A DNA stretch of 59,399 nt from Bacteroidota bacterium (GTDB taxonomy: Bacteria; Bacteroidota; Ignavibacteria; SZUA-365): contig JARYLZ010000010.1 of assembly GCA_029907355.1 (NCBI GenBank), positions 1 through 59,399 on the forward strand, given 5' to 3'. Positions 30,847-45,709 of the stretch are shown here, piece after piece. How positions within the stretch are numbered: the stretch's first letter is position 1; every line of letters begins with the position of its first letter. Both the position numbers and the translations under genes were made by a program. The notes under the pieces are model-generated. The model was not told the DNA's origin. It was given only the letters and a program-made list of their open reading frames with translations, and searched no databases.

Positions 30847-30862
30847 TCATGCGTGAAATCTC

Positions 30863-30895
30863 TTGCGCATTTCACTTTTCCTCGTTGTATTTTTG
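30863..30895 (+). promoter_or_regulatory. Bacteroidota-type promoter of the structured RNA/pfk leader
   Basis: TATTTTTG at 30888-30895 is an exact match to the TAnnTTTG -7 consensus. TTG at 30863-30865 stands 22 nt upstream. Transcription should begin near 30902. Confidence 0.55.
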
Positions 30896-30901
30896 CAGTG
30901 A

Positions 30902-31000
30902 GATCCGCTGCAGAGAATCGCAGCACGAACATAGAACTTGATGGACACATCAAGGAGGCACAGCGGAGGTGATGGTGATTGCATCACCTCCGCTTTTTTC
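30902..31000 (+). ncRNA. Candidate structured small RNA or pfk leader attenuator
   Basis: About 99 nt from the predicted start to the T-tract, with three consecutive hairpins: GCTGC/GCAGC (30907-30911 with 30920-30924), CTTGATG/CATCAAG with a GACA loop (30937-30943 with 30948-30954), and a 13-bp perfect terminator stem (30962-30974 with 30982-30994). AAGGAGG lies between the second and third hairpins. No Rfam family known to me matches. It ends 68 nt before the phosphofructokinase ATG, so it is either an independent sRNA or a terminating leader for that gene. Start point is inferred from the promoter. Confidence 0.55.
30962..31000 (+). terminator. Strong Rho-independent terminator
   Basis: A perfect 13-bp stem (AGCGGAGGTGATG with CATCACCTCCGCT), a 7-nt loop GTGATTG, then TTTTTTC. 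The 5' arm contains GGAGGTGAT and the 3' arm ATCACCTCC, the same bases as the 16S rRNA anti-Shine-Dalgarno tail. Confidence 0.85.
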
Positions 31001-31067
31001 TGTTCCGACATCGCGCAACCGCTTTCCCTCTTCGAGTGAACCCGACACGGACAGGAGGACCTCTCCC

Positions 31068-32228
31068 ATGACGTCACGCATCACAAAGACCACGAGGGCA
31101 CCATCACGGCCCGCAGCGAAACAGCAAGCGACCGTCAAACGCATCGCCGTCAATACGGGGGGCGGTGATGCTCCCGGCCTCAACGCCGTCATCCGTTCCA
31201 TCGTCCTCTGTGCGTTGAATCGAGGTTGGGAAGTCATCGGCATTCGCGATGGCTACAACGGCCTGCTTGCACCGAAGACTTTCAAGGATGGCGGGCTCAT
31301 CAAGCTGACGAGGGAATCGGTGCGCGGCATCACGCATCTCGGTGGGACGATTCTCGGGACGACGAACGCGGGCAATCCCCTCCACTACCCCGTACGCCGA
31401 CCAGACGGGAGTTACATCGAAGTGGACCGCGGGGATGAACTCCTTCGCGCCTTCGCGCGTCATCGCTTCGACGCGTTGATCGCTATCGGCGGAGACGGTT
31501 CCCTTTCCATCGCGAACGAACTCTCGAAGCGTGGATTGCGCGTCATCGGCGTGCCGAAAACCATCGACAACGATCTCGACCAGACCGTCGTGACATTCGG
31601 CTTCGACACCGCCGTTTCGTTTGCGACGGAATGCCTGGATCGGCTTCACTCGACAGCGGAAGCGCACCGCCGTATCCTCGTCGTCGAGGTCATGGGCCGT
31701 TACGCCGGTTGGATCGCTTTGCACGCGGGCGTTGCGGGCACAGCCGATGCGATTCTCATCCCGGAAATCCCTTTCGACATCCGTTCCGTCGCTGCGAAGA
31801 CGCAGGAACGCGTGCGCCGCGGCAGGAACTTTTCGATCGTCGTCGTTGCCGAAGGTGCCGTCCCCGTCGGAGGCACCCGCTCGGTGATCGCCAAAGAGGT
31901 CGGACACGCCGAGCGTCTCGGCGGCATCGCAGAAACCGTCGCCAAGCAGTTGCAGGAAATCACGGGGCAGGAAGCGCGGCACGTCGTTCTCGGCCATCTC
32001 CTGCGCGGTGGATCACCGACGACATCCGACCGCTTGCTCAGCCTCCGGTTCGGTGCGGCCGCCGTCCGTGCCCTTGACGAGGGAAAATCCGGCATCATGG
32101 TTGCGCTCGATCCGCCCACGGTGCGCTATGTCCCGCTCGCTGCAGCGACCAGACGCATGAAAGTCGTCCCGCTCGATTGCGACACGATGAAAACGGCGCG
32201 CGATCTGGGCATCTGCTTCGGAGACTGA
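31068..32228 (+). CDS. pfkA: 6-phosphofructokinase (ATP or PPi donor not certain)
   Basis: 386 residues from ATG 31068, preceded by AGGAGGAC. Phosphofructokinase motifs: NTGGGDAPGLNAVIRS, AIGGDGSLSIANEL, VPKTIDNDLDQTVVTFGFDTA, EVMGRYAGWIALHAG, HVVLGHLLRGGSPT. The phosphate-donor site has glycine in GGDG (as in ATP enzymes) but lysine in PKTIDND (as in PPi enzymes), the mixed state of group III enzymes, so the donor cannot be fixed by eye. The first 25 residues are basic and non-conserved. It is downstream of a structured leader with a strong terminator, implying conditional read-through or another promoter. Confidence 0.9.
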   Translation: MTSRITKTTRAPSRPAAKQQATVKRIAVNTGGGDAPGLNAVIRSIVLCALNRGWEVIGIRDGYNGLLAPKTFKDGGLIKLTRESVRGITHLGGTILGTTNAGNPLHYPVRRPDGSYIEVDRGDELLRAFARHRFDALIAIGGDGSLSIANELSKRGLRVIGVPKTIDNDLDQTVVTFGFDTAVSFATECLDRLHSTAEAHRRILVVEVMGRYAGWIALHAGVAGTADAILIPEIPFDIRSVAAKTQERVRRGRNFSIVVVAEGAVPVGGTRSVIAKEVGHAERLGGIAETVAKQLQEITGQEARHVVLGHLLRGGSPTTSDRLLSLRFGAAAVRALDEGKSGIMVALDPPTVRYVPLAAATRRMKVVPLDCDTMKTARDLGICFGD

Positions 32229-45458: not shown

Positions 45459-45483
45459 CTCGCGACGGGAACACCGTCGCGAG
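45459..45483 (+). repeat. Perfect 10-bp hairpin at the 5' end of the riboswitch transcript
   Basis: CTCGCGACGG (45459-45468) pairs with CCGTCGCGAG (45474-45483) around a GAACA loop. It precedes the aptamer by 5 nt. No T-tract follows, so a role as 5' mRNA stabiliser or in aptamer folding is as likely as termination of the upstream gene. Confidence 0.5.
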
Positions 45484-45488
45484 TATGC

Positions 45489-45644
45489 GTTGCGGTTATC
45501 CCGTACCGGCGGGAGAGGGAATGCCGTGGGAATCGGCAGCTGCCCCGCAACTGTAAGCAGGCGAAAACCGCGCAGGTGCCACTGGACATATCCCGGGAAG
45601 GCGCGCGGTTGAAGTAACCCCTGCGAGCCAGGAGACCGACCGCA
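45489..45644 (+). promoter_or_regulatory. Cobalamin (B12) riboswitch aptamer
   Basis: The closing P1 stem GTTGCGGT (45489-45496) pairs perfectly with ACCGCAAC (45637-45644). Inside are GGGAATGCCGTGGGAATCGG, the conserved CTGCCCCGCAACTGTAAGC core (from about 45540), and the B12 box GCCAGGAGACC (45625-45635). These are the defining elements of the cobalamin riboswitch class. It sits directly upstream of a terminator and a BtuB-type receptor gene, so it should shut off B12-uptake genes when adenosyl- or other cobalamins are plentiful. Confidence 0.95.
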
Positions 45645-45709
45645 ACGGTTCACCCAGGGCCTTCGCGGGTGAGGACCGGTGAGTGATTCCGGAAAATCCG
45701 GCATCCCCA

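Follow-up and report, generated by a model that had tools for sequence, protein, structure and literature searches.

The segment 30863-31067 of the window (the whole stretch of DNA analysed, 59,399 nucleotides), which runs from a possible -33 element through the base preceding the ATG of pfk (31068), carries a promoter, a compact structured RNA and an intrinsic terminator, and comparison with a homologous locus indicates that the RNA is real and under selection in two genera. It is suggested, with about an even chance of being correct, that this RNA is the leader of pfk ending at a premature terminator, that is, a transcription attenuator of phosphofructokinase. All features of the locus lie on the + strand. 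The gene for 6-phosphofructokinase (pfk, PF00365) occupies 31068-32228, with AGGAGG at 31053-31058, and the upstream neighbour ispG/gcpE (PF04551, 29237-30415) ends 472 bases before the -7 element. This element, TATTTTTG (30888-30895, 8 bases), is an exact match to TAnnTTTG, as the initial annotation had stated, and is conserved in the homologous genome G001, where the putative -33 region TTGCGCATTTC (30863-30873) is found at identical spacing. The primary sigma factor in Bacteroidota has TAnnTTTG, with TTTG near -33, as its consensus (PMC7366714).

As judged from the -7 element and the T-run, the RNA would be about 100 nt long and extend from 30901 to 31000. Exactly three hairpins, as had been proposed, form in the predicted fold of this 100-nt segment, with a free energy of -42.9 kcal/mol against -23.3 +/- 3.0 for shuffled sequences (z -6.6; reached by 0 of 200 shuffles). 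Hairpin 1 (30907-30924) pairs GCUGC (30907-30911) with GCAGC (30920-30924), and hairpin 2 (30937-30954) pairs CUUGAUG (30937-30943) with CAUCAAG (30948-30954) around a GACA loop. The third hairpin is the terminator (30962-30999), in which a perfect, G+C-rich 13-bp stem, formed by a 5' arm AGCGGAGGTGATG (30962-30974) and a 3' arm CATCACCTCCGCT (30982-30994), encloses a 7-nt loop and is followed by a T-run, T6 (30994-30999); it lies 68 nt upstream of the pfk start codon. As far as the sequence alone informs, the locus has its own promoter and intrinsic terminator and is without an open reading frame, which is the anatomy of an sRNA. An inverted repeat, ATGCG...CGCAT, that may be an operator is located at window positions 30849-30870, where it overlaps the -33 part of the promoter. 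It recurs in G001 (L003, - strand), directly ahead of the promoter; its halves are separated by 12 bases in the window and by 9 in G001 (ATGCGTGAAATCTCTTGCGCAT and ATGCGCGGAGGTTGCGCAT).

The rarity of this arrangement was assessed against 457,399 bases of this genome (the window plus 398 kb), scanned on both strands for perfect stems of at least 8 bp followed by five T. Such terminators are scarce, with only 11 in 457 kb, and the one upstream of pfk has the longest stem (13 bp); no other is preceded at 50-230 nt by a TAnnTTTG element, and no other carries CCTCC in its 3' arm. By itself TAnnTTTG occurs at chance level (8 in the window, 7.5 expected); the combination of promoter and terminator found here is beyond chance.

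When 100 relatives were searched by BLASTN, a single genuine homologue emerged, in G001 (E 1e-12, with 116 bases aligned at 74% identity); the remaining matches spanned 15-46 bases and were judged to be chance. This genome belongs to a different genus of the same family, and its homologue likewise precedes pfk (protein 80% identical), such that the order of promoter, RNA, terminator and pfk is common to both. In the promoter region (30863-30895) 25 of 33 bases are identical, with equal spacing, and the RNA is identical at 78 of 106 positions overall and at 44 of 51 (86%) in its core, columns 19-69. In the two adjoining pfk genes, by comparison, four-fold degenerate sites agree at only 82 of 195 positions (42%), close to saturation, and the values for the RNA therefore point to purifying selection on it. 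The conservation of the hairpins, on which the initial annotation had staked its proposal, was borne out for the stem of hairpin 2, which is invariant though its loop is altered, and for the terminator; it was not borne out fully for hairpin 1, whose pairing is retained in G001 as G-U wobbles while a different local hairpin is preferred there. The upstream blocks differ between the two genomes, ispG being absent upstream of the RNA in G001, where extra genes are also inserted between pfk and dapF, and the RNA and pfk nevertheless remain together. In other members of the family, pfk orthologues of 74-77% identity are not preceded by the RNA. Judged by pfk, the closest named relatives are genomes from metagenomes that carry the labels Ignavibacteria and Bacteroidetes.

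To seek further members, the two sequences were combined into a covariance model. The search of relatives proposed with the original description yielded the homologue before pfk in a second genus and no further convincing member: across 16 genomes of the order, 294 of the class and 395 of the phylum there was no copy elsewhere at E < 0.001, and the next matches (best E 0.005, in one genome) were rejected as sharing little beyond a hairpin and a T-run. A degenerate pattern of the core was absent from 84,980 GTDB genomes; with 3 mismatches allowed, it was found within the order in this genome (G000), in G001 and in two chance matches. One of these two, in G005, resembles coding sequence. A further 18 matches, in viral contigs, were rejected, as they have only the hairpin in common with the RNA and lack the rest of it. 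No Rfam 15 family matches the RNA region at the gathering or a permissive threshold. The signal recognition particle RNA is located elsewhere in the genome, and 6S RNA was rejected since RF00013 finds none in the genome and three separate hairpins are not 6S-like; a second 6S model, RF01685, was uninformative, no control genome having given a match. The RNA is therefore described as a candidate new family of a known kind, either leader attenuator or intergenic sRNA, which in the data examined appears confined to two genera and lineage-restricted.

For a transcription attenuator, the promoter at 30863-30895 would start an RNA of about 100 nt in which two upstream hairpins precede a very strong terminator; most transcripts would end there, and a regulated fraction would read through into pfk. 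Where transcription starts and ends, that it reads through, and what signal is sensed are inferred in this scheme. In favour of this reading are the selection on the RNA, the compensatory changes in its terminator stem and its shared position before pfk in the two genomes. In the window as in G001, no promoter of the TAnnTTTG type, the type that the scan covered, lies between the terminator and pfk, and that of the RNA is the only one of this type recognised ahead of the gene; two relatives that lack the RNA, by contrast, carry TAGATTTG 76-113 nt before pfk. A possible alternative closing stem spanning 30904-30967, in which UCCGCUG (30904-30910) would pair over 7 bp with CAGCGGA (30961-30967), could be an antiterminator in this genome, as it cannot coexist with hairpin 1 or with the base of the terminator, and its stabilisation would switch pfk on. 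In the predicted fold of the window RNA before the 3' arm is transcribed, this outer stem is formed and the 5' arm of the terminator is sequestered. However, the 7 of 7 pairs in the window fall to 5 of 7 in G001, where two are broken and the truncated RNA folds otherwise, so that the stem is not conserved as an antiterminator and this step of the mechanism is weak. A factor-dependent attenuator would not need an antiterminator structure. Counting against an attenuator, other family members do without the RNA; furthermore, so strong a terminator might let hardly any transcripts through and, with only two homologues in the data, the linkage of RNA and pfk may be plain inherited synteny. A more ambitious proposal, speculative and judged unlikely, is that leader RNAs of a novel class, present in a single family of Ignavibacteria-like Bacteroidota, couple pfk expression to a cellular signal through control of the terminator that directly follows them; the candidate signals under that proposal would be a sugar phosphate, or free 30S subunits at the conserved AAGGAGG.

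The main rival to an attenuator, less probable than even but a serious contender, is an independent trans-acting sRNA whose gene is merely located between pfk and its upstream neighbour, and which is proposed to pair with other mRNAs via the conserved AAUCGCAGCAC, ACAUAG or GAGGCA. An own promoter, a length of about 100 nt and a strong terminator with T6 are the criteria for high-confidence intergenic sRNAs in Bacteroides (PMC7366714), and the terminator here is the strongest of the 11 in 457 kb. Conservation outside the terminator, moreover, falls in largely unpaired stretches. Set against this, a free-standing sRNA would leave pfk with no recognisable promoter in either genome, and both of its only two members, with no copy elsewhere in the searches described above, lie before pfk. 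The original suggestion of a compact structured RNA, either attenuator or sRNA, stands, whereas its other component, a purposeful pairing of a Shine-Dalgarno sequence with an anti-Shine-Dalgarno copy, does not. The elements themselves were all found as had been reported: GGAGGTGAT lies in the 5' arm of the terminator (30965-30973), ATCACCTCC, which we take to be the 3' tail of bacterial 16S rRNA, in the 3' arm (30983-30991), and AAGGAGG (30952-30958) just before the hairpin. The identity is with the 16S tail of bacteria in general, the organism's own tail not being among the sites examined (30 of the 43 genomic occurrences of ATCACCTCC, none of which looks like a 16S end), and with 43 occurrences this 9-mer is no rarity in the genome. 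The arms of the G001 terminator are AGCGGAAGGCGAC and GTCGCCTCCGCT: two T-A pairs have become C-G, as compensatory changes that had been anticipated for a genuine stem, and one A is inserted in the 5' arm. These changes appear compensatory but are not statistically proven, given that 121 of 500 shuffles reach the same covariation and that with only two sequences significance is beyond the reach of such a control. As a result of the changes, ATCACCTCC becomes GTCGCCTCC and GGAGGTGAT becomes GGAAGGCGAC, with loss of GGAGG, and the pairing is kept. A conserved Shine-Dalgarno and anti-Shine-Dalgarno stem was accordingly rejected, and the retention of the stem while its words change suggests that the anti-Shine-Dalgarno copy is incidental: a striking match of this kind, seen in a single genome, can arise simply from the sequence of a terminator stem.

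The same comparison bears on the idea that the RNA senses free 30S subunits, or acts as a Shine-Dalgarno decoy, in that a ribosome at AAGGAGG would cover the 5' arm of the terminator and cause read-through into pfk. AAGGAGG is exactly conserved in G001 and placed equally there, three bases before the terminator, and in the window GTG 30969 and ATG 30972 follow it by 10-13 nt, the GTG frame continuing into pfk. In G001, however, no ATG, GTG or TTG is found at the proper distance, such that no start codon is conserved there between the two genomes; the anti-Shine-Dalgarno nonamer has been lost, as has GGAGG from the 5' arm; the first three bases (AAG) of AAGGAGG are paired in hairpin 2 in both folds; and the 3' arm is locked in a stem of 12-13 bp. 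Since AAGGAGG is conserved, a weaker idea of 30S binding survives, and a sensor of free subunits is considered improbable. Less credible again, and to be given very little weight, is a short translated leader peptide with the conserved frame LDxHIKEAxR that would control termination. The frame CTT GAT GNN CAC ATC AAG GAG GCA nAG CGG is open in both genomes. Nevertheless, in the stretch between AAT and CGG five codons have changed, a single one of them synonymously and two at both the second and third positions; the frame stops at 30970 in the window and runs on in G001, and a proper start is lacking downstream of the presumed transcription start. On the codon pattern the peptide was rejected. 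A CsrA-type GGA loop was also rejected, the GGA at the hairpin 2 loop being UCC in G001.

Three known systems offer comparisons. Cuckoo RNAs of alphaproteobacteria are sRNAs with an anti-Shine-Dalgarno motif exposed in loops; the pfk RNA resembles them in its CCTCC stretch and differs in that this stretch is buried in the 13-bp stem of the terminator, and in that the wider nonamer is lost in G001. With transcription attenuators (riboswitches, T-boxes and protein-binding leaders) it shares the arrangement, ahead of a metabolic gene's start codon, of promoter, structured leader and intrinsic terminator, together with a possible alternative stem competing with the terminator; unlike them, it has no Rfam match and no known ligand motif, and its antiterminator is not conserved in G001. 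If the RNA is an attenuator, it would exert direct RNA-level control of phosphofructokinase, of which we know of no case in bacteria and of which a limited literature search found none. GibS, an intergenic sRNA of Bacteroides thetaiotaomicron (PMC7366714), is alike in its TAnnTTTG-type promoter, its intrinsic terminator and its nature as a free-standing intergenic RNA, a likeness of anatomy, whereas the pfk RNA is tied to pfk. The RNA family appears to be undescribed. It belongs to a branch of Bacteroidota that has been little studied and in which intrinsic terminators are scarce, and it stands before a key glycolytic gene.

Three minor observations concern pfk and the rest of the genome. Upstream of its ATG, pfk remains open in frame as far back as GTG 30969 (window 30969-31067), 10 bases after AAGGAGG, and a start there would yield a phosphofructokinase of 419 aa with a 33-residue extension; the pfk frame of G001 is also open upstream, without a start codon at the corresponding place. 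A second phosphofructokinase gene, 54% identical, is present at G000:C103:1095-2102, and the covariance model finds no copy of the RNA at it. The sole Rfam match in the window at the gathering threshold is a cobalamin riboswitch (RF00174, 98 bits) at 45476-45658 on the + strand.
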